From: a virus
Length of the DNA stretch: 64,000 nucleotides
Direction: 5' to 3' (one strand)
Virus record (IMG/VR): IMGVR_UViG_3300043571_000443
Span: 1-64,000 of that record
Under the pieces are notes generated by a model, which was given only the letters and a program-made list of their open reading frames with translations, was not told where the DNA came from and did no database searches. The position numbers and the translations under genes are program-made. How positions within the stretch are numbered: position 1 is the first letter of the stretch; each line of letters starts with the position of its first letter. Below are positions 674 through 62,893 of this stretch, in pieces.

Positions 674-1495
674 CTACCCCGCCACGCTCCATTCCTTCCA
701 CGCCAGCGGGCTAGCCTGGTTGAGGATCATGCCCGACACCCTGGCAGGCCCAGCTAGCTCGAACTCGCCCAGGCCCTTGCTCAGGTGGCGCAGGCTGGCC
801 CGGCCAATGGCCCAGGGATCGGTCAAGGTGCATTTCACCCCAGCGGCCACGACAATGCCGCCGTTGAACGCCTGCAGTCGCCGCCATGGCCATAGGAGGT
901 ATTGCACTAGGTCTGGGTTGTCAGCATCGAGTGTCTCGCCGTAGTCGATGGGGCGCTTCCACCAGGGCACCCAGGACGATACCGGCACCGCGTTGAGCTC
1001 CAGGAAGTCTGCTAGGGTATCGCCCCACTTCCAGGCCACTAGCTGGCCCATGTGGCTGGGCTTAGGCCCGCTGATCGGCAGGCCCTTTACCTGTGCCTTG
1101 AGCCCGGGCCTATCGCAGAAGTAGGCGGTGATCAATGCCTTGATCAAGTCGGCCTCGCTCACCCGTCTGTCCAAGAAGTTACGGGGCACCAGGGCGGGGC
1201 CGGATCCATCCATCAGGTCCATGATGGCCTGCGGGCTACGGGTGGAGGCTTCCGGCAGGCCCGTTACTTGCAGGAACCCTGGCCAGCCAGGGCAACCCCA
1301 CAGCGGCATATCGCCCGGCAATGGTTGGTTTTCCATAGTGACACTAGCCATAGCCAGCAGCAGGCGTAGGAACGCCTGGCGGGTGAGGTGGCCTTCGCTG
1401 ATGTCGGTGTAGGCTTCAGGGCTGGCCAGTAGGTCGGCCAGGCTGGCGGTGCCTTGGGGGGTGGCAATGCAGGGGTAAGTAAAGATGTCGGCCAT
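674..1495 (-). CDS. cas8e: Compact Cas8e/Cse1-like large subunit
   Basis: The 273-residue product resembles the N-terminal part of Cse1 (CasA), the type I-E Cascade subunit that recognises the PAM and recruits Cas3. The signs are the Cse1-like opening, the helix HLTRQAFLRLLLAMA near residues 37-51 and the GCPGWPGFLQVTG stretch that follows. Typical Cse1 is about 500 residues, so this one is roughly half length. ATG 1495 is chosen because GGAG lies 6 bases upstream; the frame is open further up to 1738 but that would overlap the divergent gene. It is transcribed away from the other cas genes, which is not the usual operon order. The family call rests on motif and context, not on an alignment. 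Confidence 0.65.
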   Translation of the reverse strand: MADIFTYPCIATPQGTASLADLLASPEAYTDISEGHLTRQAFLRLLLAMASVTMENQPLPGDMPLWGCPGWPGFLQVTGLPEASTRSPQAIMDLMDGSGPALVPRNFLDRRVSEADLIKALITAYFCDRPGLKAQVKGLPISGPKPSHMGQLVAWKWGDTLADFLELNAVPVSSWVPWWKRPIDYGETLDADNPDLVQYLLWPWRRLQAFNGGIVVAAGVKCTLTDPWAIGRASLRHLSKGLGEFELAGPARVSGMILNQASPLAWKEWSVAG

Positions 1496-1565
1496 GTGGT
1501 TCTCCAGATAACGAAAAAGTGTTACTATCCAATTGTAAGCCATTAGTCGGGTTACGAGGAACCAC

Positions 1566-2210
1566 ATGAATTTTCCCCACGACATAATTAGGGACGCCTG
1601 GGCGGTGCGCCATGGTGGCCGCACTGAGGTACCCGTAGGCCAGGACAGGATTGACGTAGTGGTGTCGGGTACCCAGTACGACACGCTGGTGGAGGTAAAG
1701 CCCGCCCACCAGGTGCGCGAGGCCATCGGCCAGGGCAACAGTTATCAACGACGCTGGGCCCGGCCCAGTAAAAAGCACCTAGTGCTATTTCACGATACTG
1801 GTCTGCCGGCTAAGTCCACGCTGGAGCGACTGCGGACCCACCAGGACTCTGGTGAACTGTCCAGCTTTACCTGGGAGATAGTGCCAGCGCTGCCCAGACC
1901 TAGCTACCACATTGCCGGGGTGCCGATCAGTTTGGAGCGGCCTGTCAAAGATATTTGCGATCAGGTGGGCCGGATCAAGCGGGACTTTCAGAGCGGATCC
2001 ATTGCCGCCGAGGATCAGGCTTTTCTACACCACCTGATCATTGGCGGCCAACGTCAGGCCCGGGGTGCCCAGCTAGTCCAGGGCCGCCTAGGCGTCGAGC
2101 TGCAGGTGGTGCGGTTCGATAGCAACACCTTTACCCTGTCCAGCCAGACTGCTGCGGTGGACTGGCTGCGGCAAGCCAATTACAGAACCGTTTACGGAGG
2201 ATCACGATAA
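1566..2210 (+). CDS. PD-(D/E)XK-type nuclease in the I-E-like cas operon
   Basis: The 214-residue protein has the core of a PD-(D/E)XK nuclease in its N-terminal third: Asp30 in RIDVVV, Glu43-Val-Lys45 in LVEVK, and a Gln/Tyr motif (GQGNSYQ, residues 55-61). This fold cuts DNA with divalent metal ions. The C-terminal half is not recognised. The start has GAGG 8 bases upstream and the stop overlaps the Cas6e start (TAATG), so the two are translationally coupled. It holds a place where I-E operons have no such gene, and Cas3 is missing from the window. A role as the effector nuclease is inference; it could also be an unrelated passenger. Confidence 0.6.
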   Translation: MNFPHDIIRDAWAVRHGGRTEVPVGQDRIDVVVSGTQYDTLVEVKPAHQVREAIGQGNSYQRRWARPSKKHLVLFHDTGLPAKSTLERLRTHQDSGELSSFTWEIVPALPRPSYHIAGVPISLERPVKDICDQVGRIKRDFQSGSIAAEDQAFLHHLIIGGQRQARGAQLVQGRLGVELQVVRFDSNTFTLSSQTAAVDWLRQANYRTVYGGSR

Positions 2211-2821
2211 TGCTATACCTTTCTCGTTTTGCAAGGCCAGAAGGCCATGGTAGTTTGCACCGCTATGTGATGGCGGGCTTTCCTGACGATCTGGGCCCAG
2301 ACCCCCGCAGCCAAGTCGGGGCATTGTTCCGGGTTGACGGCGGATCCATCCTGGTGCAGTCGGTAGAAAAGCCCAAGTGGCCTAAAGCCTATGAGGCCCA
2401 GGTAAAGCTCGAGTTTAAGCCTAGCCTGCTCAAGGTTGGGGAGCGTTACCGCTTCCGCTTGGGGCTCAACTCCGTGGCCCAAAGCAACCGGGATGGCCGA
2501 TGCCGTCGTTACCCGGTGCCTGCCGTTGACTGGCTGGCGGCCAGGGAGGATCGGCTAGGTGCTACCTTCGAGGTGCGCCAGGTGCGGGTGCAAAAACACC
2601 ATGATCATGTTCGGCGGGAGCACTATACCCGCAGCTTCCCCATCGAGGTATCGGTGGTGGACGGCTACCTGACGGTGACCCATAGCCAGCGGCTGGCTGA
2701 TGCCATGGTCAACGGCATTGGCCGGGAGAAGGCTTATGGTTGCGGGCTGCTGTCCTTGCTGCCGGTGGCGGTGGTGACTCCTGCGGCTGAGCCTGCACTG
2801 GTGGGAGTGGTTCAAGCATAA
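2210..2821 (+). CDS. cas6e: Cas6e (CasE) CRISPR RNA endonuclease
   Basis: Cas6e cuts the CRISPR precursor at the base of each repeat hairpin and stays bound in Cascade. The 203-residue product has the usual family length (about 200). It shows a conserved His17 in LHRYVM, matching the catalytic histidine region, and the C-terminal glycine-rich loop GIGREKAYGCGLL (about residues 169-181), which is diagnostic of Cas6e. It overlaps the nuclease gene by one base. Two of the hairpins it would be expected to cut lie immediately after its own stop codon. Confidence 0.92.
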   Translation: MLYLSRFARPEGHGSLHRYVMAGFPDDLGPDPRSQVGALFRVDGGSILVQSVEKPKWPKAYEAQVKLEFKPSLLKVGERYRFRLGLNSVAQSNRDGRCRRYPVPAVDWLAAREDRLGATFEVRQVRVQKHHDHVRREHYTRSFPIEVSVVDGYLTVTHSQRLADAMVNGIGREKAYGCGLLSLLPVAVVTPAAEPALVGVVQA

Positions 2822-2825
2822 TAAC

Positions 2826-2885
2826 TGGCCCACTCCGGTGGGGGTGGATCGACAACCAAAAAGGCCCCACAGGCGTGGGGGTGGC
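2826..2885 (+). repeat. Two CRISPR-like hairpins between cas6e and cas7e
   Basis: Two hairpins (CCCACTCCGGTGGG and CCCCACAGGCGTGGGGG), about 35 bases apart, each followed by GTGGATC or GTGGCCA on the plus strand. They therefore lie in the sense orientation of the cas transcript. The 3-prime handle resembles that of I-E repeats known from Thermus and actinobacteria (GTGGACC-type). Cleavage here would split the cas mRNA. Confidence 0.6.
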
Positions 2886-2916
2886 CACCAGGCCCAGTCC
2901 TTAAGGGAGGAACCTT

Positions 2917-4170
2917 ATGTTTATCGAACTGCACCTGATCCATGCCTTGCCGCCCAGCAATGCCAACCGGGACAAGTCCGGGGCACCCAAAAAGATCCAA
3001 TACGGCGGTAGCTGGCGAGCCCGGCTATCCAGCCAGTCCCAGAAACGGGCCGCCCGGCAACACTATGGGGAATGGATGGCCGTTGACCGCAAGGCTTTGG
3101 CTTTCCGTAGCCGTCGCCATGATCAGGCACTGGCCAGCCGCCTATCCTGCTGCTGCACTGGCTTTTTGGGCGGTGACGCTGATAACTTGATGGTGGCCCG
3201 GTTCTTGTTGGGCTTGTTCAACCTCAAAGACGACAACCTGATCCCGGCCATGCTGGAGGATAGCAGCAACCTGCTATTCCTGTCCGAGCATGAGCTGGAC
3301 ACCATTGCCCTCCTGGCCGCCGACCATTCGGTGCTACTGGGAGATATGCTGGAGCGGGCCGGGCGTTACCGGGAGGCTTTGGCGCTCGAGCCCAAAAAGG
3401 CCCCAGCACCTGAAAAGCCTAGCGCCAGGGATTTGCAGGGCATTCGCAAAGCCTTGGGCAAGCTAGGCCAGCAAGTACCAGGGGATGTCGCACTGTTTGG
3501 CCGGATGATGGCCAGCCTGACTGAGGCCAGCGTCGATGGCTGCACCCAGGTGGCGGATGCGATCTCGGTTAATTCCTTTGGTATCACCAATGTCAAGGGC
3601 ATGGGCCAAGTGATCGGCGAGCTGGACTTTTTCACCGCCGAAGACGATATTGAGCCGATGGACGAAGAGTCTAAGTCTGGCGCTGGCCACCTGGGGGAGC
3701 TGCCCATTATCTCGCCGGTTTATTACCGGTATGCCAATGTCAATGTGACTGAGCTGGCCCGCTTGATCGGCGACCCCGAGCTAGCCCAGCAGTTTGCCAA
3801 AGGGTTCATTACGGCATTTTGCGCCACCTTGCCCACTGGGTATATTCGCAGTCGGGGCCACCTAACCCAGCCAGACTATGTGCAGGTGCAGGTGACAGCG
3901 GCTCAGCCGTATAGCTTGGTAGGTGCTTTTCATGTGCCGATCAACAGTTGTGTTGGCGATGAAGACTTTTTGGTTCAGAGTATCCCGCATCAAGCCGCCG
4001 ACGCTTTGCGTCAGTACCAGGACCGACTAGCCAGCATGTACGGCGATAAGTCGCTTTATAAGTCCGAAGTTACCACCCATCCTGGCTGGTTTGGAATGCC
4101 TTTGGACGAAGCCATCGACGGGGCCCTAGCGGTAGTCATGGGCGCTGGCAAGGAGGTGGCCTATGCCTAA
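2917..4170 (+). CDS. cas7e: Cas7e (CasC/Cse4) Cascade backbone
   Basis: The backbone RAMP protein of type I-E Cascade, which polymerises along the crRNA spacer. The N-terminus MFIELHLIHALPPSNANRD followed by GAPKKIQYGG and WRARLSSQSQKRAAR is the standard Cas7e signature, where the protein contacts the guide RNA. VNSFGITNVKG near residue 208 is also typical. The product is 417 residues, somewhat longer than the common 350-390. A strong Shine-Dalgarno (GGGAGGA) precedes ATG 2917. It overlaps cas5e by 8 bases. Confidence 0.93.
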   Translation: MFIELHLIHALPPSNANRDKSGAPKKIQYGGSWRARLSSQSQKRAARQHYGEWMAVDRKALAFRSRRHDQALASRLSCCCTGFLGGDADNLMVARFLLGLFNLKDDNLIPAMLEDSSNLLFLSEHELDTIALLAADHSVLLGDMLERAGRYREALALEPKKAPAPEKPSARDLQGIRKALGKLGQQVPGDVALFGRMMASLTEASVDGCTQVADAISVNSFGITNVKGMGQVIGELDFFTAEDDIEPMDEESKSGAGHLGELPIISPVYYRYANVNVTELARLIGDPELAQQFAKGFITAFCATLPTGYIRSRGHLTQPDYVQVQVTAAQPYSLVGAFHVPINSCVGDEDFLVQSIPHQAADALRQYQDRLASMYGDKSLYKSEVTTHPGWFGMPLDEAIDGALAVVMGAGKEVAYA

Positions 4171-4609
4171 GCTAGTTTTAAGGCTAGCGGGCCCCATGGC
4201 CGCCTATGGTACCGGGCCACGGCTGCAGCAACGACTGACCGAAGAGGCGCCAACCGAGTCGGCGATCCGTGGGATGCTCTGTGCTGCACTGGGCATTCGC
4301 CGGGGTGAGCCAGCGCCAGCCCTCGACGGGCTGCAGGTAGAGGTAGGCGAGACTACCCATGGCGGCATCCTGGAGGACTTTCACACCATCCGCGATGCAG
4401 TTACCTACGACGGAGCGCCAGGCCGCAATGCCATCACCACCCGGCACTACCTAAGCGATTTCAGCTCCACCGTTACCCTGCGGGGTGACTTGCAGCAGAT
4501 CCGCGCCATTGCCAAGGCGCTGGCCCGGCCTAAGTTCCAGCTATACCTGGGGCGGCGTAACTGTGTTCCGACTGGCCCGATCTGGGCTGTTGCCCGGGAA
4601 GAGGCTTAG
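4163..4609 (+). CDS. cas5e: Cas5e (CasD), short form
   Basis: Cas5e caps the 5-prime handle of the crRNA in Cascade. The start LVLRLAGPMAAYGTGPR, then TESAIRGMLCAALGIRRGE, matches the conserved beginning of Cas5e. The product is 148 residues against the usual 210-240, ending soon after the RHYLSDF segment, so the thumb and C-terminal parts are reduced. The start overlaps the cas7e stop. The same size reduction is seen in the Cas8e-like protein, which points to a miniaturised complex. Confidence 0.85.
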   Translation: MPKLVLRLAGPMAAYGTGPRLQQRLTEEAPTESAIRGMLCAALGIRRGEPAPALDGLQVEVGETTHGGILEDFHTIRDAVTYDGAPGRNAITTRHYLSDFSSTVTLRGDLQQIRAIAKALARPKFQLYLGRRNCVPTGPIWAVAREEA

Positions 4610-6051: not shown

Positions 6052-6443
6052 TAGGTGACGGTGGACCCACTTCGGTGGGGGTTTCTCGAGCGGCAAATCC
6101 CACTTGGTAAACCAGTTGATTGCCTCGCAAACACCTCCCCACTTCGGTGGGGGTTTCTCCGTGATGGCTGATCGCAATGTCACCAACCGGGCCGTCGCAA
6201 ACACCTCCCCACCCCGGTGGGGGTTTCTCCCTGGTCTGGTTGGTCGACGACTCGGTAACCACCGCCCTCGCAAACACCTCCCCACTCCGGTGGGGGTTTC
6301 TCCGTGGTAGTGGAGCTGATTAAATTCTGGCTACAGCACTCGCAAACACCTCCCCACTCCGGTGGGGGTTTCTCGGTTAGGGCCAGTTTGCTAGCCTGAC
6401 CCGTCACCTCGCAAACACCTCCCCACTTTGGTGGGGGTGAGTC
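6052..6443 (+). CRISPR. CRISPR array B, 36-nt repeats
   Basis: Repeats of 36 bases beginning CTCGCAAACACCTCCCCAC and ending GGTGGGGGTTTCTC at 6124-6159, 6194-6229, 6267-6302, 6339-6374 and 6408-6443; the last has a mutated end. A leader-fused half repeat ends at 6087. Spacers are unique: 6088-6123, 6160-6193, 6230-6266, 6303-6338 and 6375-6407 (36, 34, 37, 36, 33 bases). The stem is CCCCAC/GTGGGG, in most copies with a TTCG or TCCG loop; C-UUCG-G is an unusually stable RNA tetraloop. Two solitary hairpins follow near 6484-6500 and 6527-6545. Which Cas6 processes it is unknown. Confidence 0.9.
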
Positions 6444-6583
6444 TTGCCCCTATCGCTCCAGCGTGAAACTGGGCTTGGCATTCCCCACTCTAGTGGGCGT
6501 TCCTCCAGCCCGTACCTATCCTATACCCCACCATCGTGGGAGTTTCCGCCCTGGCTTTGCCGGGCTTTGTGCGTTTTAGGCGC

Positions 6584-14534: not shown

Positions 14535-15031
14535 CGCTCCCACGGGGTGGGGTTGCTCAGGGCAAAGAATAACTCCCACGATGGTGGGGTGATCTAGCGA
14601 CCGGAGCGACTCCCACCGAAGTGGGGCTGGGCTGCTGGGTTTGGAAAAACCCCCACCGAAGTGGAGAGGCGTTTGCGAACAGGCCGGGGAGGGGCCGGGG
14701 GCCGGGGCATGGTGGGGAGAAACCCCCACCGAAGTGGGGAGGTGGTTGCGAGTTGTCAAGGCTGACTTTGAAGCTGGCGTGGCGGTCGAGAAACCCCCAC
14801 CGCAGTGGGGAGGTGCTTGCGAGTGTGCTTAGCAGAGCCCTTGATGCCAGCCTAGGCGACGAGAAACCCCCACCGAAGTGGGGTGTGCTTTGCGAGAACC
14901 CGCTGATCGAGGGCTTGACGCTTCGAGACTGGGAGAAACCCCCACCGAAGCGGGGAGGTCTTTGCGAGCAGTTAGGACAAATTGACTCGAAGACGGAAAA
15001 ACCCCCACCGGAGTGGGATCCACCACTGTCA
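14535..15031 (-). CRISPR. CRISPR array C, mixed full and short period
   Basis: Full 36-nt repeats (plus-strand sense GAGAAACCCCCACCGAAG ... TTTGCGAG, the reverse complement of array B) at 14644-14679, 14717-14752, 14788-14823, 14861-14896 and 14933-14968. A leader-fused repeat lies at about 14996-15031. Spacers: 14680-14716, 14753-14787, 14824-14860, 14897-14932, 14969-14995 (37, 35, 37, 36, 27 bases). Beyond 14644 the array changes to bare hairpins centred near 14545, 14580 and 14617, period about 36. The leader is on the right, so the array is transcribed on the minus strand and the short-period part is the distal, older end. Confidence 0.88.
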
Positions 15032-37128: not shown

Positions 37129-37140
37129 ATCAGTCCCCGT

Positions 37141-52036: not shown

Positions 52037-52282
52037 CTACTCTGGCTTATAAAAACATTTGCCAACGGCGCCCCATACCGAGTGAGTGGTGATGTTTTTA
52101 TGCGGAATGATAACACGACTACCATCGAAGATGATGATCAAGTCATCCTTCCGATAGCTGCAACCATCACGATCACCATACAAAAATTGCTGAACTGTGC
52201 CGCCCATGTACTCAGGCGCAAACATGAATAACGCCTGATTTACCTCGGCCCCAAAAGACTGACACATAGTAGGCGTAGACAT
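52037..52282 (-). CDS. Hypothetical early protein with conserved promoter
   Basis: 81 residues, beta-rich, with three cysteines (TMCQSFG, RDGCSYRKDD, GKCFYKPE). Unrecognised. The promoter 52315-52343, the CACTTACG/GAGGA leader and its own terminator make it a monocistronic early unit like 8198 and 53005. Confidence 0.55.
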   Translation of the reverse strand: MSTPTMCQSFGAEVNQALFMFAPEYMGGTVQQFLYGDRDGCSYRKDDLIIIFDGSRVIIPHKNITTHSVWGAVGKCFYKPE

Positions 52283-52314
52283 AACTCAATCCTCGTAAGT
52301 GGTTCGATACCTTC

Positions 52315-52343
52315 ACTATACCCCCCCTGTATCGAACCGTCAA
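52315..52343 (-). promoter_or_regulatory. Early promoter-operator
   Basis: TTGACG (52338-52343), 17-base spacer with GTTCGATACAGGGGGGG, TATAGT (52315-52320), then GAAGGTATCGAA. Member of the shared promoter-operator family. Confidence 0.75.
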
Positions 52344-52353
52344 CAGCCTGCAA

Positions 52354-52377
52354 CAAAAAACCCCGGACTGGCCGGGG
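52354..52377 (-). terminator. Terminator of the 52398 gene
   Basis: CCCCGG...CCGGGG stem with AAAAAA on its left, reading on the minus strand. Confidence 0.75.
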
Positions 52378-52397
52378 CAATGCAACAGCCTAGCAGA

Positions 52398-52856
52398 TCA
52401 GACCCTGGCCGCCCAGTGGCGCTCTAGCAGGTCGTCTGCCGTCCTGGCTAAGTTAATTCGGGCACCGTCGTTGATAGCCTCAGAGATAGCGCCAATGTGG
52501 TATGCCGCCATCTTCGAGTAGTATTTCAGCGCCCCAGTCAGGCAGGACATCCACAGCGGCAATTTCTCCCAGGTGGGGCGCTGACTATTGTAAAACTGGC
52601 TGAACCCGCTGATCGGCTCTTGCAACGCCTTGCGGCACTGGGCCAGGCTACTGCCTTGCTGGCTGGCCAGGACCACCAGGGCCTCCATGCAAGCCACATA
52701 CCGGCTAGCCATGGTATCAACAGGCTCACCGCTGACTAGGCCATCGTTCACCAGCTGGATAGCCCGTTGCAGGTCACCCAGGGCATCAGTACTAGCTGGC
52801 CGGATAGCCAGGATGGCTGGCTCTAGATCGGCGAGTCGGGCGAGAGTCTTAGTCAT
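52398..52856 (-). CDS. Hypothetical helical protein
   Basis: 152 residues, all-helical (LADLEPAILAIRPASTDALG; ALKYYSKMAAYHIGAISEAI). No family recognised. Last gene of the structural half on this strand; it could be early or late. Confidence 0.5.
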   Translation of the reverse strand: MTKTLARLADLEPAILAIRPASTDALGDLQRAIQLVNDGLVSGEPVDTMASRYVACMEALVVLASQQGSSLAQCRKALQEPISGFSQFYNSQRPTWEKLPLWMSCLTGALKYYSKMAAYHIGAISEAINDGARINLARTADDLLERHWAARV

Positions 52857-52940
52857 GGGTGGATCCGGTAAACGTCCCCACTAGCCTAGCAGAAACCCGA
52901 ACAAAAGCCTATGGCCGGAAGGAAAAAGCCTAAAGCGGGG

Positions 52941-52969
52941 TTGACGGTTCGATATGCAGGGGGTATATT
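52941..52969 (+). promoter_or_regulatory. Early promoter-operator
   Basis: TTGACG (52941-52946), 17-base spacer with GTTCGATATGCAGGGGG, TATATT (52964-52969), then GAAGGTATCGAA. Nearly identical to that at 54993-55021. Confidence 0.78.
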
Positions 52970-53004
52970 GAAGGTATCGAACCACTTACACCGAGGACCG
53001 ACCC

Positions 53005-53208
53005 ATGCCCAAGTTCATTTCCATCCAAGACGGCGCTTACCTGCTCAACCTGGCCCATATCGTCAGCATCGAGGTAAATAAAGGATCCCTGGAAGTTACC
53101 TGCAATGATGGCCAAGGGGCCTACACCATAGATGACCCTGACGAGATGGGGACACTGATGGACGCGATCCAAATCGTGGATTCAAGCGAAGAAGGGATGC
53201 AAATGTAA
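53005..53208 (+). CDS. Small early protein
   Basis: 67 residues (MPKFISIQDGAYLLNLAHIV then SIEVNKGSLEVTC), a beta-rich protein with an acidic end; the pattern of strands suggests a small barrel. Unrecognised. Leader CACTTACACCGAGGA and a strong early promoter precede it. Confidence 0.6.
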   Translation: MPKFISIQDGAYLLNLAHIVSIEVNKGSLEVTCNDGQGAYTIDDPDEMGTLMDAIQIVDSSEEGMQM

Positions 53209-53236
53209 CCCACCCTCCCCACCGCTTCCCCGCAGA

Positions 53237-53259
53237 CCCCCGGCCTAGCTGGGGGTTTT
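53237..53259 (+). terminator. Terminator of the 53005 gene
   Basis: CCCCCGGC/GCTGGGGG stem followed by TTTT; it overlaps the 3-prime end of csf1 on the other strand. Confidence 0.7.
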
Positions 53260-53919
53260 GCTTTGGGCCACATAGCTGAGCAGGTCCATTAACCGGCTGC
53301 CCCGCACTGGCGCGATCTGGTCCTCCAGTGGCTGATACTGGCTGATCGCCCGCATCAGCCTGTCGCTGTGGTACAAACCGCTATCGATCTCCGTCTTGCT
53401 AAACCCCAGCGCCATTAGCCCCTCATAGGCAGCTAGAAGGCCCGTGAAGCGTTCCCGGCCTATCCACAGGGTATCTAGCTCGAACTGCACCGGGAAATGG
53501 TCTCTGCTATGGCCATCCTGGGCCCAGGGCAGCACATGTTTCTGGCCAGACTCAGCAATGACAATCGTAAACGGTGGCTCCGGTGGCTCCAGTAGCCAGC
53601 CACGGATCTGAGCTCGGGTGGGCAAGTCCGAGACTACCGGAAAGATGTCTTTGCCGATGGCCTTGGCCTCACCGATCGCAGGCGACAGCAGCACATCGCC
53701 CTGGTACAACCGGCTCAGGGACCGGCCCCATAGCTTACTCCACTTGTCCTTGCCCTGATTCCAGTACCACAGCAGCTTCTCATGGCCGTCGATGGCACCA
53801 TAGCACCGCCCGCATAGCTGGTCGGAGTCTGGGCAACGGGCCATGCTGTGGCCGGTGAAAGTGTCCTTGAGCGCCAAGGGGAAGCTGGCGGGCTTGCCGC
53901 ATAGGTAGCACTCAGCCAT
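53245..53919 (-). CDS. csf1: Csf1-like type IV large subunit
   Basis: 224 residues. Csf1 stands in for Cas8 in type IV CRISPR complexes. An N-terminal zinc-finger is readable (Cys4, Cys7 in CYLCGKP; Cys29; Cys36, Cys39 in QLCGRCYG), as is usual in Csf1. A helical middle (KDKWSKLWGRSLSRLYQGD) and a C-terminal helical domain follow. ATG 53919 is preferred to 53988 because GGAGG lies 9 bases upstream and it overlaps the cysH stop by 8 bases. Sits at the end of the CysH operon, apart from Csf2 and Csf3. Confidence 0.68.
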   Translation of the reverse strand: MAECYLCGKPASFPLALKDTFTGHSMARCPDSDQLCGRCYGAIDGHEKLLWYWNQGKDKWSKLWGRSLSRLYQGDVLLSPAIGEAKAIGKDIFPVVSDLPTRAQIRGWLLEPPEPPFTIVIAESGQKHVLPWAQDGHSRDHFPVQFELDTLWIGRERFTGLLAAYEGLMALGFSKTEIDSGLYHSDRLMRAISQYQPLEDQIAPVRGSRLMDLLSYVAQSKTPS

Positions 53920-54655
53920 GGTCTGCAACCTCCGGAAAGTGTTTACAAAATTCAGCCCAAAATTCTGGATGGTAGCGCCGCAGGTCACTGAGTCGCCCCC
54001 AGTTTACGCCAGTAGTCCCGATGGGTGGCCCATTGCGCACCGTCAGCCGGTCCCGGTCGTACATGGCAGGGTAGGGCAGTCGGTGGGCGTCGATATAGCA
54101 CCAAATATCCTGGGTGCTCCAAAAGCCGACCGGCGAACATACCCACAGGCCATCCTTACGCTGGTATAGCTCGCCCTTGCCCTTCAGGTACATAGCGCGG
54201 CCCCGAGACTCTTTGCGTAGCCCCCAGGCATAGCCTCGCACGCCATGGGCCTCCTGGTAGTCATCCAGCGGGCCATACATTAGCGCTGCATTAATGCGCT
54301 TGTCCAGGCCGGTCGCCATGGTGCCATCCAAGGGAATGCCATAGTCCTGGTACAGCTTCAGTAGGCTGCGGGGTGGGCATAGCTCGATGATGTTCCAGCC
54401 CTGGCCCTGCAGGTGGTGCAATAGCTCGATGCAGTCCGGCCATTCTGCCAACGGCCCTTGGTTTACCCAGGCAAAAGGGCAGTCCGGCCATACCTGGCGG
54501 ATTAAGTGAGCCATTACCAAGCTATCCTTGCCGCCACTGACTGAGCCATAGGCGTAGCGATCTGTGGCCTCCAGCCAGCGGCCAATAACAGAAAGCGCCC
54601 GGTCAACCTTGCGGGTCAACCAGGGCGCTCGTGAGCCGGTGCCGGTGTTAAGCAA
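53912..54655 (-). CDS. cysH: CysH-like PP-loop protein of the type IV module
   Basis: 247 residues. The PP-loop SGGKDS is at residues 40-45, in the PAPS-reductase/ATP-pyrophosphatase fold; GLRKESRGRAMYLKGKGEL and CSPVGFWSTQDIWCYID further on are also CysH-like. CysH-like genes are the standing partner of type IV-B CRISPR loci (established in surveys of type IV), with unknown function. It overlaps csf1 by 8 bases and its ATG overlaps the small gene upstream, so it is tightly coupled to the complex. Confidence 0.85.
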   Translation of the reverse strand: MLNTGTGSRAPWLTRKVDRALSVIGRWLEATDRYAYGSVSGGKDSLVMAHLIRQVWPDCPFAWVNQGPLAEWPDCIELLHHLQGQGWNIIELCPPRSLLKLYQDYGIPLDGTMATGLDKRINAALMYGPLDDYQEAHGVRGYAWGLRKESRGRAMYLKGKGELYQRKDGLWVCSPVGFWSTQDIWCYIDAHRLPYPAMYDRDRLTVRNGPPIGTTGVNWGRLSDLRRYHPEFWAEFCKHFPEVADHG

Positions 54656-54956
54656 GCTGCATCCGCTCGCTCATTGCATCCGCAAACCATTCGCGGATCT
54701 TGTCTTCGGCATTGTCATAAAAGCGAGTGTTGGAGTCGTCATCCCACTCTTCGTCGTTGAGGTGGGGGACGGTAAGAATGAGTCCGGGGCTATCGTACAG
54801 GTTCCCAACAGAACCCTTGTCCAGGGATCGGTAGGTGCCATCCTCAAACAGCTCAACAACGTAAGCACCGCCGCCCCAGGATGCCTTTGTGGAAGAATCA
54901 ACGGTGGCCTCGAAGTCGATGGCCATGAAGTTATCGAAAGCCTTTTGAATAGTCAT
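54648..54956 (-). CDS. Acidic small protein leading the cysH-csf1 operon
   Basis: 102 residues, acidic, with a helical C-terminus (YDNAEDKIREWFADAMSERM) and a beta N-terminus. Unrecognised. Leader CACTTATGAGGA and an early promoter-operator (54993-55021) directly upstream make it the first gene of the cysH-csf1 unit, expressed with early phage genes. A regulator or co-factor of the type IV complex is possible; there is no direct evidence. Confidence 0.6.
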   Translation of the reverse strand: MTIQKAFDNFMAIDFEATVDSSTKASWGGGAYVVELFEDGTYRSLDKGSVGNLYDSPGLILTVPHLNDEEWDDDSNTRFYDNAEDKIREWFADAMSERMQLA

Positions 54957-54992
54957 CAGTCAGTCCTCATAAGTGGTTTGTTCCATGCCTTC

Positions 54993-55021
54993 AATATACC
55001 CCCTGCATATCGAACTGTCAA
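54993..55021 (-). promoter_or_regulatory. Early promoter-operator of the cysH-csf1 unit
   Basis: TTGACA (55016-55021), 17-base spacer GTTCGATATGCAGGGGG, TATATT (54993-54998), then GAAGG. The spacer equals that of the promoter at 52941. It places cysH and csf1 under early phage control, separate from csf2/csf3. Confidence 0.8.
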
Positions 55022-55626
55022 CACTTTTCGACAAAATAGCCACAGCCTAGGCGCTGTCTACCTCCTAGCCCTTGCCGCTGGAGAGTCAGCGACGCATCCG
55101 GCGATAGGTCGGCAAAGCTTACCCCGTAGCCCACCACGGCAGCATCCTTGATCCGCAGGGTTTTGCGCTCCCCCAGTACCGGCATAGACTGTACCCCCAA
55201 CCGTTCCAGCGCCTTGCCTAGGGCTATCCCGAACTCAAAAGGTGACACCTGGTCCTGGTACTGGGCTTTGATGGTCACCAGCCTTGCCTCCAGGCTAGGA
55301 CATGGCTGCAGGGATGCACCCGTGAAGGTGCCTAGCTGCACCAGCGCCTTACCCACCCGCAATACTTGCCCGTCCAGGCTACCGAATAGCTCCAGGTTGG
55401 CCAGCTCAGTCCGCACCCCTAGCCAGCTTTCGCTACCCAGTTGCACCCAGCCCTGGCGGTCCGGGATACCGTTGATCGTCTTCAGCGACCAGGCCAGCTC
55501 CTTTAGCCCCGGCAGGCGTTCCACCAGAGCGCTATAAAGCCGGTAGCCATGGTCGGCGGGTATCCTATCGCCCTGCACCGGCCAAGCTAGCTGTATCCAG
55601 GTAGGCGGTGTGGACGGGCATGGCAC
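55018..55626 (-). CDS. cas6: Cas6 of the type IV module (Cmx6-like)
   Basis: 202 residues from GTG 55626. It looks like the Cas6 family called Cmx6 (I-MYXAN): AWPVQGDRIPADHGYRLYSA, LPGLKELAWSLKTINGIPD, the core GRVLR-like LDGQVLRVGKALVQLGTF, and the C-terminal glycine-rich loop LGGRQRLGCGYFVEKC. Cas6 cuts CRISPR RNA. IV-B systems reported so far usually lack a Cas6, so its presence beside csf3 is unusual. The frame is open to 55776, but this would overlap csf3 by over 200 bases; no ATG lies nearer, so the start is uncertain. Confidence 0.72.
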   Translation of the reverse strand: MPCPSTPPTWIQLAWPVQGDRIPADHGYRLYSALVERLPGLKELAWSLKTINGIPDRQGWVQLGSESWLGVRTELANLELFGSLDGQVLRVGKALVQLGTFTGASLQPCPSLEARLVTIKAQYQDQVSPFEFGIALGKALERLGVQSMPVLGERKTLRIKDAAVVGYGVSFADLSPDASLTLQRQGLGGRQRLGCGYFVEKC

Positions 55627-56293
55627 AGCGGGCTTTGTTGGCTGATAGCCAGGCGGGGGGTCGCCAGCCCCAGTCGCGGATGGCAATATCAATCGGTCGG
55701 TCCCGGGGCAGGTGGACGGCGGGGATGGGTCGCATAAGTTCACCGTTTGGCCCCCATAGGTGCCAGTCTTGGTCATGGTCCTCTACCTCCCAGTTGGTAA
55801 CTTGCCCGTAGCCATGGGCGCGTTTCTTGCCTAGCCCAGTACAGCCTTGCAATAATGCCGCGATGCCTTCCCGGTCGCCCTGGCAGTACCAGGTGATTGT
55901 CGGTGCCAGCCGCACAAACAAGGGCAGGTCGTAGGCTTTCTCCGCCCCCTGACTGGTATCCCACTTTGCCTTGCGCTTCCCCCAGGCCGGTGGTGGGCTA
56001 TCGATCCCAGGTGCCCAGCGCTTCCTAAATTTGCTAACCGACTCATTGCGGTAGGTGTAGCACGGACTAGAGGTTTGCCAGTACCAATCCTCGCCCAGCC
56101 AACCCTTAGCCAGTGGCATGTGTTCATCCACTACCGGGCGGCTAGCTTCTACGTCCTGGGCGCTAGGGTTGGGGGCCGCCATGCCCCGGGCATCGAGGAT
56201 CAACCACTCCAGCAGGCTAGCCAGATCAGGACTCCAGTCATCAAAGACGGCAATGCCCGACGATAGCCGGGCGGTGACTCGCAGGTTAGCCAT
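55565..56293 (-). CDS. csf3: Csf3 (Cas5-like) of type IV complex
   Basis: 242 residues. Csf3 plays the role of Cas5, binding the crRNA handle. The start NLRVTARLSSGIAVFDDWSP, with LASLLEWLI, is the common Csf3 opening, and LQGCTGLGKKRAHGYGQVTN holds the glycine-rich loop near residue 155. Overlaps csf2 by 8 bases and runs on into the cas6 frame. Regarded as a firm member of the type IV family by motif and context. Confidence 0.82.
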   Translation of the reverse strand: MANLRVTARLSSGIAVFDDWSPDLASLLEWLILDARGMAAPNPSAQDVEASRPVVDEHMPLAKGWLGEDWYWQTSSPCYTYRNESVSKFRKRWAPGIDSPPPAWGKRKAKWDTSQGAEKAYDLPLFVRLAPTITWYCQGDREGIAALLQGCTGLGKKRAHGYGQVTNWEVEDHDQDWHLWGPNGELMRPIPAVHLPRDRPIDIAIRDWGWRPPAWLSANKARCAMPVHTAYLDTASLAGAGR

Positions 56294-57449
56294 TGAGCAA
56301 ACCCTTCAGCTCGCTGGACTCCTGGGCCTGGGCTAGAAATTCCTGGTAGACGCTCAGGTAGTCCTGATAGGCATGGTGGGCCTCCTGAGCGGCGCTGGAT
56401 AGCGTCTGGCTGCCAGTAGCTAGCGATAGGAAATGGCCGCGCTCCTGGCCACGCTGATACCAAAATTCTAGCGACACCAACCCATTGCCGCGGTTAGCCT
56501 TGCCGCCGATATAGGGACTTTCGGCAAAGCGCAGTAGGGTATCGACTACCCAGCCAGTCTCGATGGCGGTGGTGTGCAGATCCCAGCGGCTATAGAGCCT
56601 GGAACCCGCCATGATCAGCCGGTCGCTGGCGATCATCTGGTCAGACTTTTTGGCCTTATCCTCACCCTTAGCCTTTGACTTGGCCTCACCCAATAGGCTC
56701 ATCTGGCCTTCCTCCGTACCGCCTGGGAGGAACTTTTGCAACGCTGGATCGTGGGTACTATCGCGGCGGGTGGTTTGGTCTACCGTCAGGTACTGGGTCC
56801 AGTTGCGCAGCATCTTGCGCAGGTAGGGCAGGTGGTCTGCCTTGGCCTGGCGGTAGACTTCAACCTGCTCAGCCGTAGGTGGCTCAAACGGATTAGCTGT
56901 TAGCCTGTCTTTGTACTCCAGTAGTTCCTGCAGCCTGGGCAGTACATCTGGCGGCAATAGGCCGGGAAATTCCCGGTAGATCAGCTCCGCCGACTCGTAG
57001 CACAGCAGATACGCACTACCCACCGCCAGTCGGCCATGGACCATCTGGGCATTCTTCACCCCAAATACCCCGGCAGGCTTGGCCGTACCCAGCACCGACA
57101 GCCAGGGCATCAACTGCCGGATGCGGGTGTCCAGGTCCATATCGTTGGCGGTGCTGCCATCAATGCGGCCGCCAGCAAATAGGGTGTGGTGAACATCTGG
57201 CGATACCTGCAGGGCCAGCGCATCCAGCACACTAGCCATGCCACGGCGGCGTAGGATACCATTCCGCAGCGCATTGCCAGAATAGACAAAGCAGGAGACC
57301 GGGTTCCCCTCCAGGTCCAGCAGCTTGGCCGTCTTGAGGTTACTGACATTGCCTGCTACCTCGCCAATGTGGGACAGCGGGCTTTGCAGGGTCACCTGGC
57401 AGTGCAAGGTGATCCGCTGCCGATCATGGATATCGTAAGCTTCAAACAT
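56286..57449 (-). CDS. csf2: Csf2 (Cas7-like backbone) of type IV complex
   Basis: 387 residues. Csf2 forms the helical backbone that holds the guide. It begins ITLHCQVTLQSPLSHIGEVA with VYSGNALRNGILRRRGM: the pattern (sP...GNAlR...lRR) is that of Csf2 and other Cas7 homologues. A helical insert rich in Lys/Glu lies near residues 240-280, then YIGGKANRGNGLVSLEF near residue 330. Overlaps its neighbours by 8 bases on both sides, so csf2-csf3 are tightly coupled. Confidence 0.85.
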   Translation of the reverse strand: MFEAYDIHDRQRITLHCQVTLQSPLSHIGEVAGNVSNLKTAKLLDLEGNPVSCFVYSGNALRNGILRRRGMASVLDALALQVSPDVHHTLFAGGRIDGSTANDMDLDTRIRQLMPWLSVLGTAKPAGVFGVKNAQMVHGRLAVGSAYLLCYESAELIYREFPGLLPPDVLPRLQELLEYKDRLTANPFEPPTAEQVEVYRQAKADHLPYLRKMLRNWTQYLTVDQTTRRDSTHDPALQKFLPGGTEEGQMSLLGEAKSKAKGEDKAKKSDQMIASDRLIMAGSRLYSRWDLHTTAIETGWVVDTLLRFAESPYIGGKANRGNGLVSLEFWYQRGQERGHFLSLATGSQTLSSAAQEAHHAYQDYLSVYQEFLAQAQESSELKGLLNG

Positions 57450-57957
57450 CGGTGGTTACCTCTACGTCGATAGCATCGTCTGGCGCATCCTGGCCTAGCG
57501 CCCGGTCTTCCTCAAAGCGCAGGCGGCACAGCACCTGAATGATAGCCGCCCGGGTCCGGCATAGCTCAAGCACATCCCACTCGGTAAAGCCGTCCTTGGC
57601 GATCTGCTGCAGCAAGTCCCGCCAGCCGACAAAGACTAGCGCCTCATCCTGGGTCAGCTCCTGGATCTCGCTCAGGTCAGCGTTTACCCGTAGGATGCGC
57701 TGCTCTGGCTGCACGATGCCGGTCAGTACCGCTGGCCGTAGGTGGCTGATCAAGGCATTGACCAGGCGTTGTAGGTAGTCCTCCAGCGTGGTGGATACCT
57801 CAGCGCTATTCTGGATAGTGGACTCCAGAAAAGTCCAGGTCTTGGTGCCCATGGCTGGACTTTTGGCCCGGTCGCGGCACTTGAACACCCAATAGCTAAG
57901 GGCTGCCGCTAGCCCATAGGCGCTATCGGAGGCATTGGAAAAACCGAATTGACTCAT
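57442..57957 (-). CDS. Cas11-like small subunit of the type IV module
   Basis: 171 residues from ATG 57957, almost wholly helical, no cysteine motif. In IV-B systems a Cas11-type small subunit is encoded beside csf2. The position here (first gene, 8-base overlap with csf2) and the helical composition fit; the sequence by itself does not prove it. A TATAAT box at 57977-57982 leaves a very short leader. The open frame reaches 58005. Confidence 0.55.
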   Translation of the reverse strand: MSQFGFSNASDSAYGLAAALSYWVFKCRDRAKSPAMGTKTWTFLESTIQNSAEVSTTLEDYLQRLVNALISHLRPAVLTGIVQPEQRILRVNADLSEIQELTQDEALVFVGWRDLLQQIAKDGFTEWDVLELCRTRAAIIQVLCRLRFEEDRALGQDAPDDAIDVEVTTDV

Positions 57958-57976
57958 AATGCTTGACAAAACTGCC

Positions 57977-57982
57977 ATTATA
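57977..57982 (-). promoter_or_regulatory. TATAAT box of the csf2-csf3 unit
   Basis: A perfect TATAAT read on the minus strand, 20 bases before the Cas11-like start. No matching -35 at the usual spacing. Confidence 0.4.
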
Positions 57983-58071
57983 GTATCACAACCCTGGCCA
58001 GCCACGACAAAGCCCGCCAGGTGGCCAGCGGGCTGGGGTGGGGGAGTGGGGTGGAGGGGGAGTGTCCTCTT

Positions 58072-58359
58072 TTACTCAAATACGACTCGCCGCATCTCCT
58101 CTTGCACACCAAGCATTAGTTCTAAAGCTTGGTCAAATGTTCGATTTACTCTGCCCATGCGCTGACGGACATCTGGCTCAACTTCAGACCCCAAGGCCCT
58201 TTTTGCCAATAAATCGAAGATAGCTTCTTCCAAAAGCGCTTGAACGCTAGTATTCTCCTGAGAAGCTATTTCCCGCAGCTTGACGGAGACCTCTGGATCA
58301 AAGCGACCAGCTATCATCTTTTTGTTTCGTCTAGCTTTGTTGGCATCAACATCAAGCAT
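58072..58359 (-). CDS. Ribbon-helix-helix protein at end of HerA operon
   Basis: 95 residues. NKKMIAGRFDPEVSVKLREI followed by ASQENTSVQALLEEAIFDLL is a classic ribbon-helix-helix DNA-binding fold, as in CopG and partition-site repressors. A helical tail follows. ATG 58359 overlaps the methyltransferase stop by 8 bases. Possibly autoregulates the operon; similar in kind to the partial gene at 3-65. Confidence 0.7.
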   Translation of the reverse strand: MLDVDANKARRNKKMIAGRFDPEVSVKLREIASQENTSVQALLEEAIFDLLAKRALGSEVEPDVRQRMGRVNRTFDQALELMLGVQEEMRRVVFE

Positions 58360-59599
58360 GAAATACAGCTCCATCAGAAACAAAAGTTAGAATTTCGGTC
58401 ATGTCAGTCAACATCACCCTGTTCTTTTTGGCCATGTTATTCATCCTTGCCATGTTGGGATTTTGGGCCTGCTGAATGCGCCTAGAGGCATAGGCCTTGT
58501 CGTAGAGCGAGTAACCCGCTTGCGTGAAAACACTTTCAACAATGCAAGTAACCGGCAGGATCTTTTTTGTAGAAACATCCCGATAGTTGGGAGTCATGAC
58601 AGTGCAAAGCCCTTTGCCCTTTTGAGCCGCTGCACAATTCCTGGCTATGCCTGCCATCGATCTTGCCCACAAGTCAAATTCCATATTGGCTATATCGTCA
58701 GACCGATCCGAGTACTGGTTGACCACCATGCCATAGTAGGGAATGTCCATCACGATGTAATCAACGTCAGCCACGGGTAGACCTAGCCTAAGGTCGTTCT
58801 GCTGAATCTGATCTGCATAGCGACCCCGGGGGGAAAGGTCGAAGCATCGCAAGTCAATGTCCCATTGGTCGCCAACCATCCATTGAGCCCGGTTTTCCCA
58901 GACGTTTATAATCTGGCCGCTACCCGCCATCGGTGCGACTACCTTAGCGCCCGGAAAGGTGTAATACCAAAGGCAATTTGCGTAAATATCCCCTGGGATA
59001 TAGCCATGGGAATGATCATTCTCCGGCAGCCGATCAAAAGCAACTTGAGAAAAGTTCCAGTTGTCAGTAGGCTTTATGATCGGGCTAAACTCAGGCTCTT
59101 TGCCGGTGCGCGGGTTCAGGTACAAAGGGATATTGTTCTCTATCTTGTACTGCTTGACCACGTTGGTGACAACGGCTGCAGTTGGCTTTGCCTCTGACGT
59201 AAGCACAGCCTCAAGCACCTCTGCCTTTTGCTCTTGACTTAGACCAGATGTAGCTATCGGACGAACAGAGCCTTCAGATAAGCCCAGCTTATCAATATTG
59301 GCTTGAATGATTACAGGATCGGCGTTTTTGGTGACAATTGGCACCGAGTTAACTGTGTCTGCGAACGCAATTGATCTGTTGACATAGTTGCTGCCTAAGT
59401 TCCATCTTTCTTGGCAATAGGCTTCAAAGGTTGTAAACCCCAGGTCTTGATAATGCCGATCGTCCCGGATCTCCTTTAAGGCCATGGCAAGAATATACAG
59501 CTTGCCGATTGCTTCCCCAATGTGATCCTCAAGCTGCTTTAGCCGGTCTTGCTTGCTTAAGCCTGCCCCTGGCGGCAGTTGAGCAAAAGTCATACTCAT
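58352..59599 (-). CDS. DNA methyltransferase with helical N-terminal domain
   Basis: 415 residues. The SAM motif VVAPMAGSGQ (about residue 232) and the catalytic VDYIVMDIPYYGM (a D-x-P-Y form, about residue 288) mark an amino (N4/N6) DNA methyltransferase of the beta order. The first 80 residues are helical (KLYILAMALKEIRDDRHYQD, then YCQERWNLGSNYVNRSI), resembling domains in phage and plasmid ParB-like or DUF3102 proteins. Overlaps herA by 4 bases. AT-richer than the phage average. Confidence 0.75.
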   Translation of the reverse strand: MSMTFAQLPPGAGLSKQDRLKQLEDHIGEAIGKLYILAMALKEIRDDRHYQDLGFTTFEAYCQERWNLGSNYVNRSIAFADTVNSVPIVTKNADPVIIQANIDKLGLSEGSVRPIATSGLSQEQKAEVLEAVLTSEAKPTAAVVTNVVKQYKIENNIPLYLNPRTGKEPEFSPIIKPTDNWNFSQVAFDRLPENDHSHGYIPGDIYANCLWYYTFPGAKVVAPMAGSGQIINVWENRAQWMVGDQWDIDLRCFDLSPRGRYADQIQQNDLRLGLPVADVDYIVMDIPYYGMVVNQYSDRSDDIANMEFDLWARSMAGIARNCAAAQKGKGLCTVMTPNYRDVSTKKILPVTCIVESVFTQAGYSLYDKAYASRRIQQAQNPNMARMNNMAKKNRVMLTDMTEILTFVSDGAVFHA

Positions 59600-61233: not shown

Positions 61234-61235
61234 GG

Positions 61236-62342
61236 TTATTTCCCTCTAAAATCGTCACTGTCAATCAAATCGAAAGCCTGGCCAGGGTTATGTTCCATCA
61301 CCACTGACTCAAGCCTGGCCTGCACACTACTCCTGTCATGGCAGCCATCTAGAAAAGCATCTACATGGTCAAGCAAGAAAGGAATCTCGTGTCCAGGCGT
61401 ATCAGAACGCTCCCCGTACATCATTGCCAACGCCCAATGCAGCTGATCAATGCGACACTCGAAACCGAAATACTTAGACTGCCCTGTAGTTGGATTACCT
61501 GGACGATACACACCCCTGCAATATTTGGCGGGCACCCGCTCCATCCATGCAGCCTTGTTCTTAGACGAAGCCCAGGTTTTATTCCTTTTCTGAAGCAGAG
61601 TCCGGCAATCCGTTATGATGTAAGCCTCTCCATCTTTAAGCACCTGCCCAGAAATCTGCTCCTCAGGAGAAGAGGCAGATAAATTCTTGATCACACCAAC
61701 CACACGCTTGCCAGACTTCAAGATTTTTTCTGTCAGCTTTTCCCCATCTGGCTGAGTAATCAAATTCTGAGTAAGGATGGGGCCGTCTACAATAACCGAC
61801 TGGCTAGAACAGTTAAGAGCCAGCTCCCTCTCTTTGTACTCTCGGAACGTGTTAGGCCACGACCTGTCTTGAATGGTCAACGACTCAATCAACTGATCAA
61901 AGGAAAAACCTTTTTTGCCAGCTAAAGCTGGGGTCGCCTGCGCTCTAAACACTTGAGGGTCAGACATGCTAGTGGTGTACCCTATGCCAGCGACAATAAC
62001 CTCATAAAACTGCCCAACCAAAGTCTGAATCAAGGGACTGTCGGTCGCATCTATTGCAAAAAGATCGTCCCTATACTGCTGAATTTCAGGATCGTAGTAG
62101 TCAAACCAATCTTGCAGGTTGCAAAGAAATCCAACATCAGGCAAAGAATCCTTAGAAGATTCGTTCCACTGATCTGGGGTCATAAAGCAACCCTCGACAA
62201 AATGCCTCATCTCTGCCAATGCAGGCTGCGACCTTTCAAACAAATCCAGTACTTCTGCGGTCTGATAATGCAACGGATCGTTGTAAACGTCGTCAGTAAT
62301 GTCTTTGCAGCCTGCAAGAATCTTTGAAAACTCAGACGCCAT
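61236..62342 (-). CDS. NurA-like nuclease
   Basis: 368 residues. The NurA pattern is visible: LFAIDATDSP with Asp98, SVIVDGPILTQNLI near residue 193, KRVVGVIKNLSAS, and PFLLDHVDAFLDG near the C-terminus. NurA is a 5-prime to 3-prime nuclease working with HerA. The gene lies 2 bases before herA. The family call is from motifs and context, so the paired system is likely but the nuclease is moderately uncertain. Confidence 0.62.
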   Translation of the reverse strand: MASEFSKILAGCKDITDDVYNDPLHYQTAEVLDLFERSQPALAEMRHFVEGCFMTPDQWNESSKDSLPDVGFLCNLQDWFDYYDPEIQQYRDDLFAIDATDSPLIQTLVGQFYEVIVAGIGYTTSMSDPQVFRAQATPALAGKKGFSFDQLIESLTIQDRSWPNTFREYKERELALNCSSQSVIVDGPILTQNLITQPDGEKLTEKILKSGKRVVGVIKNLSASSPEEQISGQVLKDGEAYIITDCRTLLQKRNKTWASSKNKAAWMERVPAKYCRGVYRPGNPTTGQSKYFGFECRIDQLHWALAMMYGERSDTPGHEIPFLLDHVDAFLDGCHDRSSVQARLESVVMEHNPGQAFDLIDSDDFRGK

Positions 62343-62435
62343 CTATAAAACTCCAGTCTGCGTACTGTCAACAAAGTCATGCTAACACAACTAAGCTTAA
62401 AGTTGGCGGCTATTATTTGGATTTTATAACTTTTG

Positions 62436-62695
62436 GGTTCCCCCACCCCTGTGGGGCCTGCACCATCTGGTTGAACCACCCCCACCGCAGCGGGGCAGTT
62501 AACGCCCTTCAGCAGGACACACCCCCACCCCGTGGGGCCTCTGAAAAGCTACCGATCCACCCCCACCATCATGGGACACCATAACCCTGTAGGAGTCACC
62601 CCCACCCGGTGGGGCACAGGAGCTAAACCGATCAACTCCCACCGCAGTGGGGCCTTTATCCCGAGTGACTCACCCCCACCAGCGTGGGGCCTGGC
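62436..62695 (-). CRISPR. Short-period CRISPR-like array I
   Basis: About seven hairpins at roughly 40-base steps, with minus-strand handles such as GTGGGGGTGAGTC, GTGGGAGTTGATC and GTGGGGGTGGATC. It lies in sense orientation between the gene ending at 62696 and the NurA operon. The unit at 62451-62490 is a near copy of one at 23458-23497, including the inter-hairpin stretch. Confidence 0.55.
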
Positions 62696-62893
62696 CTACG
62701 CCGCGTCCTGCTGCTCTCCCTCCTCCATTACCACCACGGGCTCTAGCACCTGCCGGGCCAGGGCCTGCATGGCTGGCGGGGCGTCTGGCTGGGCTAGCAC
62801 CAGGGCGGCTAGCTCCTTGGCCGCAGCCTGGGCGGCTTTGGTGCGGGCAATGCCCTTGCGGAAAATAGCCTTCGACTGTGCAGTTAGTTGCAT
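62696..62893 (-). CDS. Hypothetical helical protein
   Basis: 65 residues (KAAQAAAKELAALVLAQPDA), helical, alanine-rich, acidic tail. Stop is at the edge of array I. Unrecognised. Confidence 0.5.
   Translation of the reverse strand: MQLTAQSKAIFRKGIARTKAAQAAAKELAALVLAQPDAPPAMQALARQVLEPVVVMEEGEQQDAA

Follow-up and report, generated by a model that had tools for sequence, protein, structure and literature searches.

We describe here a type IV-B-like CRISPR-Cas operon that is carried by a phage and includes its own Cas6, a gene kept by purifying selection and co-inherited with the Csf2 lineage of the operon. It lies in a stretch of 64,000 nucleotides (positions 1 to 64,000 of the IMG/VR virus record IMGVR_UViG_3300043571_000443; hereafter the window), where it takes up positions 53245-58005 of the minus strand in the order cas11, csf2, csf3, cas6, a 102-aa open reading frame (ORF), cysH and csf1, and it is cargo in a variable slot of the phage genome. 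An earlier note, made from the sequence alone, had counted seven proteins here, and all were located on the minus strand where it had placed them. Its picture of a phage-borne operon with IV-B-like genes, a genuine Cas6 and a promoter of phage type has held, but its proposal that nearby arrays complete a guide-making complex has not. The features of the operon, with the evidence for each, are:

53245..53988, minus strand: csf1, Cas8-like large subunit (TIGR03114, PADLOC type IV Cas8, pN/pS)
53912..54655, minus strand: cysH-like PP-loop ATPase of the PAPS-reductase fold (PF01507, alignment, AF2 and Foldseek)
54648..54956, minus strand: 102-aa ORF between cas6 and cysH (homologues at 91-98%)
54993..55021, minus strand: sigma-70-type promoter TTGACA-N17-TATATT with a palindromic operator-like flank, before orf102-cysH-csf1 (motif, conserved in contigs L006-L009)
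55018..55626, minus strand, with a longer ORF to 55776: cas6 of the Cmx6 family, about 202 aa (PF09559, TIGR02807, selection, clade)
55565..56293, minus strand: csf3, Cas5-like (TIGR03116, PADLOC Csf3_0_IV)
56286..57449, minus strand: csf2, Cas7-like (TIGR03115, PADLOC Csf2_0_IV, tree)
57442..58005, minus strand: cas11-like small subunit (PADLOC typeIV_Cas11 1.9e-5; position conserved among relatives)

Membership of type IV is seen in the three Csf proteins, each of which is best matched by type IV families: Csf1 by NCBIfam TIGR03114 (6.6e-10) and the PADLOC type IV Cas8 model (2.9e-27), Csf2 by TIGR03115 (3.2e-9) and PADLOC Csf2_0_IV (4.9e-40), and Csf3 by TIGR03116 (7e-14) and PADLOC Csf3_0_IV (2.2e-42). 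Families of types I and III were absent or far weaker, and a type I or III identity for Csf2 and Csf3, the outcome that would have spoken against the earlier note, is ruled out because no Cas7 or Cas5 family of those types outscored type IV. The NCBIfam type IV scores are below the curated cut-offs and, consequently, the Csf proteins of this operon are divergent members of their families. Csf1, whose gene has a ratio of nonsynonymous to synonymous polymorphism (pN/pS) of 0.10-0.12, has two CxxC pairs close to its N-terminus, and its true start, as read from relatives, is probably near 53919; that of the Cas11-like protein is probably at 57957-57978. The operon recurs at 94-99% protein identity in four contigs (L006-L009), and the 102-aa ORF, which had no convincing match in family searches, is present in L006, L008 and L009, with none seen in L007. 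In profile searches no operon protein matched Cas10, Csf1 being present instead. No effector nuclease was recognised within the operon and no array lies inside it, no DinG-type helicase (PF13307) was found in the whole record, and Cas1 (PF01867) was not found in the nine records searched.

Is the Cas6 a real gene, or is its frame an overlapping non-coding artefact, a possibility that the earlier note had itself raised? Its family matches are strong (Pfam PF09559, 5e-47 and 160.8 bits against a cut-off of 26.7; TIGR02807 cmx6, 6.7e-46 and 156.7 against 98.85 bits), and the called ORF shares 212 nt with csf3. Relative to three close relatives, the stretch that is read as Cas6 only (55018-55566) has a Cas6-frame pN/pS of 0.02-0.17, which rules out the artefact. 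In the overlapped part the Cas6-frame values are 0.43-1.24, so that constraint there is not consistent, and those for the whole of csf3 are 0.11-0.13. The PF09559 domain begins at residue 61 of the called ORF, and this, together with the constraint outside the overlap, leads to the conclusion that Cas6 is a selected gene that probably starts at the GTG at 55626 (202 aa) and not at 55776. The called ORF thus probably begins about 50 codons early, its first 50-60 residues or so being, in all probability, non-coding.

Further support for the Cas6 comes from its retention with the operon in four contexts: the phage group of the window, a second phage (L010), a Spirulinaceae genome and the Gloeobacter morelensis plasmid pGMOR1 (NZ_CP063846.1). 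It adjoins the operon in L010, in the plasmid locus L004 and in the Spirulinaceae genome. L010, in which a terminase (TerL) is present, has the order cas11-csf2-cas6-cysH-cupin-csf3-csf1 and a Csf2 that is 80% identical; the plasmid has cas11-csf2-cas6-csf3-cysH-cupin-csf1; and in the Spirulinaceae genome the operon, with a divergent cas6, is divided between two contigs, whose ends share 224 nt at 99%. In the Cas6 tree the window, L008, L010 and Spirulinaceae sequences form one clade (support 100/100), separate from the Cas6 of full I-B systems. The next-nearest Cas6 proteins outside it, 31-39% identical, are from full I-B (MYXAN) systems on cyanobacterial plasmids. The Csf2 tree likewise places the window, L008, L010 and Spirulinaceae together (89/81) within a cyanobacterial and phage group (93/93), and the branches that connect it with Rhodococcus, Rhodovastum and IV-A are long and their placement unsure. 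From the agreement of the Cas6 clade with this Csf2 clade (window, L008, L010 and L078) we conclude that Cas6 and this Csf2 lineage have stayed together through a long divergence. The Gloeobacter Cas6 groups, on a long branch, with that of the full I-B systems, and may represent a second capture.

A wider scan gave 18 further contigs (L011-L028, among which are several near-duplicates and the truncated L028) with Csf2 segments at 57-75%, plus one distant contig (L029). Every complete contig of these has csf genes and CysH, and Cas6 was not found in the 17 wider-scan Csf2 records that were searched whole. A Csf2 search of phage records returned no match. In bacterial genomes a first scan was empty and a second gave one Spirulinaceae contig; that this Csf2 occurs in only one of the 386 cyanobacterial genomes searched indicates that the family resides mainly on mobile elements. 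L011 (1372-8662) has, besides a full cas11-csf2 and a piece of each of these two genes upstream, csf3 three times and cysH and csf1 twice each in tandem, as if alternative sets had been stacked, and in L028 (9478-10428) csf2 is reduced to about 51 residues followed directly by part of csf1, a remnant left by deletion in the operon. Directly downstream of the operon in L010 (6090-6803) is a Mom-family DNA modification gene (PF25680, 2.2e-45).

The source record is 74,186 bp in length with a 127-bp direct terminal repeat, on which ground we take it as complete, and it encodes genes of a tailed phage: terminase, portal, major head protein and a tyrosine integrase. The carrier is a tailed phage that looks temperate. 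Leptolyngbya phages are among those with the nearest terminases (49%); since the operon, too, has cyanobacterial relatives, the host is probably a cyanobacterium. G020 and G021, two sister phages in synteny with the window phage (shared genes mostly about 75-100% identical at the protein level), were found to be without csf genes, the IV-B-like operon and the Cmx6 Cas6. The difference resides in a cargo slot (window 52037-62893), bordered on one side by a short array, whose contents differ across the window phage, G020, G021 and the related record G001: the IV-B-like operon with a HerA-like gene and unknown genes in the window, the operon with a 555-aa gene of unknown kind in G001, and large unknown ORFs together with a BRO-N-like gene in both sister phages.

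CysH was present in every complete relative seen. That of the window matches Pfam PAPS_reduct (PF01507, 1.5e-10) and carries SGGKDS; across the alignment of phage CysH proteins either S-G-G-K-D-S or S-W-G-K/T-D-S is kept, along with G-x-R-x-x-E-S-like and L-P-Y-like stretches. We did not find in that alignment the C-terminal catalytic cysteine motif of the CysH enzyme (PMC8175902). The AlphaFold (AF2) model, with a mean predicted local distance difference test score (pLDDT) of 82, was best matched in Foldseek by CysH 6vpu (2.5e-8), then by FAD synthase and tRNA thiolases. The published view is that CasCysH is an ATP alpha-hydrolase (PMC8175902), and the model and the missing cysteine motif fit that view. 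A small cupin gene adjoins a CysH of the second type (SWGKDS) in phage L010 (3869-4237) and in the plasmid locus L004 (17384-17779), and is absent from the window operon, whose CysH is of the SGGKDS type. Outside the operon, the phage has another gene that resembles cysH (L003 3842-4690; record 63842-64690), with an SGGKTS motif and no Pfam match, which is 97% conserved in G020 and G021 and was not found in G001.

As a motif, the promoter that the earlier note had proposed upstream of cysH is real. Its sequence, TTGACA-17-TATATT at 55021-54993, is one of three near-identical copies, at 52343(-), 52941(+) and 55021(-), of a TTGACR-17-TATAKT element with the palindrome GTTCGATA..TATCGAAC, against 0.03 copies expected, and the copy behind cas6 is retained in L006-L009. 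We infer, with fair reason, that a repressor-controlled phage promoter drives orf102-cysH-csf1.

Do the arrays of this phage belong to the operon? The earlier note had coupled the Cas6 with nearby arrays, and the arrays themselves are real: the window has 33 exact CCCACN4GTGGG hairpins where 0.09 are expected, and with mismatches allowed this genome has about ten intergenic clusters, while ten related records together give 274 candidate units. A 7-nt handle GTnnnTC follows in 215 of these 274, its fixed letters being there by construction because the units were filtered on the handle pattern among other features. The units are of two kinds. Of the long ones (60-79 nt), 50/72 end in CTCGCAAACACCT-like sequence; none of the 132 short ones (35-45 nt) does so, and roughly 13-20 nt remain past their handle. 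The arrays, and the I-E-like effector genes of the same phage, are:

677..4609: I-E-like effector genes, comprising an unassigned ORF of about 272 aa at 677-1498(-), a 214-aa ORF at 1566-2210, cas6e at 2210-2821, cas7e at 2917-4170 and cas5e at 4163-4609
6066..6540, plus strand: long-unit CRISPR-like array, units of about 70 nt, repeat CTCGCAAACACCTCCCCACNNNNGTGGGGGTTTCTC
14538..15018, minus strand: another long-unit array, which ends in short units
62441..62690, minus strand: array of 7 short hairpin units spaced by 37-43 nt, bordering the cargo slot; not operon-specific, also in G020, G021 and G001
Short-unit arrays: window 212-660, 2829-2880, 4619-4860, 13758-13811, 14538-14650, 23410-23501 and 62441-62690; G001 36850-37236

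The I-E-like matches are strong (PF08798 1.5e-31, PF09344 4.9e-69 and PF09704 1.5e-28, with TIGR01907/01869/01868 above their cut-offs). The 214-aa ORF has a weak SfsA-domain match; the ORF of about 272 aa had no family match and a structure model of pLDDT 29, and that it is Cas8e is a guess from position. No Cas1 was found for this set and no Cas3 was recognised in the phage. The set is conserved in G020 and G021 and partly in G024, and all the complete array-bearing phages have such a separate Cas6e/Cas7e/Cas5e set. G020 and G021 keep both array kinds, including the short array at the slot edge, although the operon with its Cas6 is absent from them. It follows that the arrays are not particular to the IV-B operon, and the proposed complete guide-making type IV complex loses its support with that result; they go with, and probably belong to, a second, I-E-like system of the same phage, and the IV-B Cas6 may make use of them as well. 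The degenerate short-unit arrays (CCCAC-N3/4-GTGGG plus handle every 35-45 nt) are intergenic and scattered, several of their guide parts are common to the sister phages, and the units have the look of short, non-canonical guides that would serve the I-E-like complex. G001 has one short unit in tandem copies with an identical spacer, unlike the products of Cas1-Cas2 acquisition.

Phages show IV-B repeatedly beside another array-bearing CRISPR system, which is I-E-like in the window and C2c8-like elsewhere. Among 15 Cas6-less IV-B phage records (one with a truncated Csf2), nine have a C2c8-like type V effector (for instance, L018 17737-19605; L024 14188-16056 and 19086-20849; and, by sequence resemblance, L021 16339-18210), near which several have arrays of 37-nt repeats; effectors and arrays are about 1-6 kb downstream of the IV-B operons. 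Some of the 37-nt repeats have GGGATTGAAAC as their ending and in this resemble the cyanobacterial DR5 repeats that a study of cyanophage N-1 has reported (PMC4916379). IV-B and I-E are also found on one plasmid in Mycobacterium sp. JS623, yet the IV-B complex there was without enrichment of CRISPR RNA (crRNA) (PMC7937560).

What, then, might the operon do? The explanation we prefer, tentatively and at somewhat less than even chances, is that the phage cargo encodes a Csf ribonucleoprotein, with a Csf2 filament, Cas11, Csf3 and Csf1, that is served by a dedicated Cas6 and partnered by CysH. Cas6 would cut repeat-hairpin RNA supplied in trans, from host arrays of I-B type (the source of its nearest relatives outside its clade) and/or from hairpin units of the phage itself, and pass the product to Csf3/Csf2. 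The loaded complex would bind matching nucleic acid, and CysH, being of the ATP-pyrophosphatase type without the sulfur-transfer cysteine, would act chemically on the bound target in an adenylation-like manner. Rival elements or host defence genes would thereby be silenced and not cut, a reading we favor because of the lack of a recognised effector nuclease in the operon and of DinG or Cas1 in the record. The genes, the selection on Cas6, its co-inheritance and the cargo slot are observed, and the steps of cleavage, loading, targeting and chemistry are inferred. Several observations weigh against this explanation: the majority of phage relatives are without Cas6; no targets were found in 50,697 phage records for 27 long spacers; comparison of spacers with the loci at hand gave only common array positions and short matches at chance level; and the purified JS623 IV-B complex bound heterogeneous RNA despite co-expressed crRNAs and Cas6 (PMC7937560).

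That JS623 result is also the starting point for a quite unlikely alternative, in which the complex assembles on non-specific, non-CRISPR RNA, with CysH as the working part and Cas6 as a passenger or regulator. The predominance of phage IV-B loci without Cas6 and the constancy of CysH would suit such a scheme, but the strong purifying selection on Cas6 and its tracking of Csf2 over a long divergence speak against it. Alternatively, Csf proteins and Cas6 may sequester host pre-crRNA, making the operon an anti-CRISPR and not a targeting system. This idea has already been published for IV-B (PMC8175902) and agrees with carriage by a phage in a cargo slot, with the occurrence of the same Cas6 family in the complete I-B systems that hosts have on cyanobacterial plasmids, and with the lack of a recognised effector nuclease, of Cas1 and of an array within the operon. 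It leaves CysH unexplained and, as the Cas6 clade is separate from the host I-B Cas6, the substrate may differ; we consider it rather unlikely, though the least so of the alternatives. We give little credence to a self-contained type IV system made up of the operon and the arrays of the phage. These do share one genome with the Cas6, and the short array adjoins the slot on the strand of the operon, about 4.4 kb upstream, and is also present in G001 and L006-L009, but G020 and G021 keep the arrays with an I-E Cas6e in the absence of the operon, and CCCAC hairpins were not found in Cas6-less IV-B phages, phage L010 or the Cas6-bearing Gloeobacter plasmid. A wider conjecture, and a doubtful one, is that this phage family runs an I-E-derived Cascade (no recognised Cas3) and the IV-B-like complex on a shared pool of dozens of phage hairpin RNAs, many of them non-canonical short units with a guide of about 15 nt, that would serve as regulatory or silencing guides and not as acquired immune memory.

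The RNA cargo of the IV-B complex and its link with CysH are standing questions in the field. A IV-B-like lineage with a Cas6 that has coevolved with Csf2 suggests that processed guides are in use in at least some IV-B complexes and offers a defined complex in which to search for them, and the recurrent placement of IV-B beside an array-bearing CRISPR system bears on the origin of those guides.

How does the operon compare with known systems? It has the IV-B features of csf1, a Cas11-type small subunit and a CysH-like PP-loop protein without the catalytic cysteine. However, subtype IV-B has been described as being without a crRNA-processing enzyme (PMC8175902, PMC7937560) and as lacking Cas6 and arrays (PMC8175902) or an adaptation module and array (PMC11656645). 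As our operon has a selected Cas6 we regard it as a IV-B-like variant and not as classical IV-B. The DinG of IV-A is absent, as is the Cas10-like protein that replaces Csf1 in IV-C, and without Cas1 in the nine records it is not a complete adaptive CRISPR-Cas system. A search of the literature since 2022 gave no paper on phage-encoded type IV-B with Cas6, although Pinilla-Redondo 2020 could contain an earlier mention. The IV-B loci of Mycobacterium sp. JS623 and of the Rhodococcus and Rhodovastum plasmids (PMC7937560) share with ours csf2, csf3, a Cas11-like gene, CysH, a mobile element and the lack of a recognised nuclease, but they have neither Cas6 nor a phage and their Csf2 is only 27-34% identical over partial length. 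Fuxiviridae also have a virus-borne IV-B operon with CysH, but these are archaeal viruses with a two-repeat mini-array, and Cas6 is unmentioned in their description (PMC10848311).

Type IV-A (a Methylobacter plasmid; structure 8rc2) combines a Csf2-type backbone with a Cas6-type maturase, as here, but has DinG and neither Cas11 nor CysH. The cyanobacterial I-B (MYXAN) systems, and the I-B2 Cas6 of the CRISPR-associated transposon type (8fcj), use the same Cas6 family, but in full systems with cas3/cas8/cas1/cas2, whereas here the Cas6 is beside csf genes. An Actinomyces plasmid in which IV-B accompanies an inactive Cas12b3 and a mini-array (PMC12669027, Extended Data Fig. 7) is alike in that IV-B stands next to another CRISPR system, one with an array, on the same element, although its partner is Cas12b3 and not the I-E-like set of the window phage or the C2c8-like effector of the Cas6-less phages. 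Gloeobacter pGMOR1 has cas11, csf2 (55% identical), cas6, csf3, cysH and csf1, and in the stretches examined we recognised no CRISPR array next to its operon; it differs from the window in being a plasmid, in having the second CysH type and a cupin, and in a Cas6 that comes from another branch of the family.

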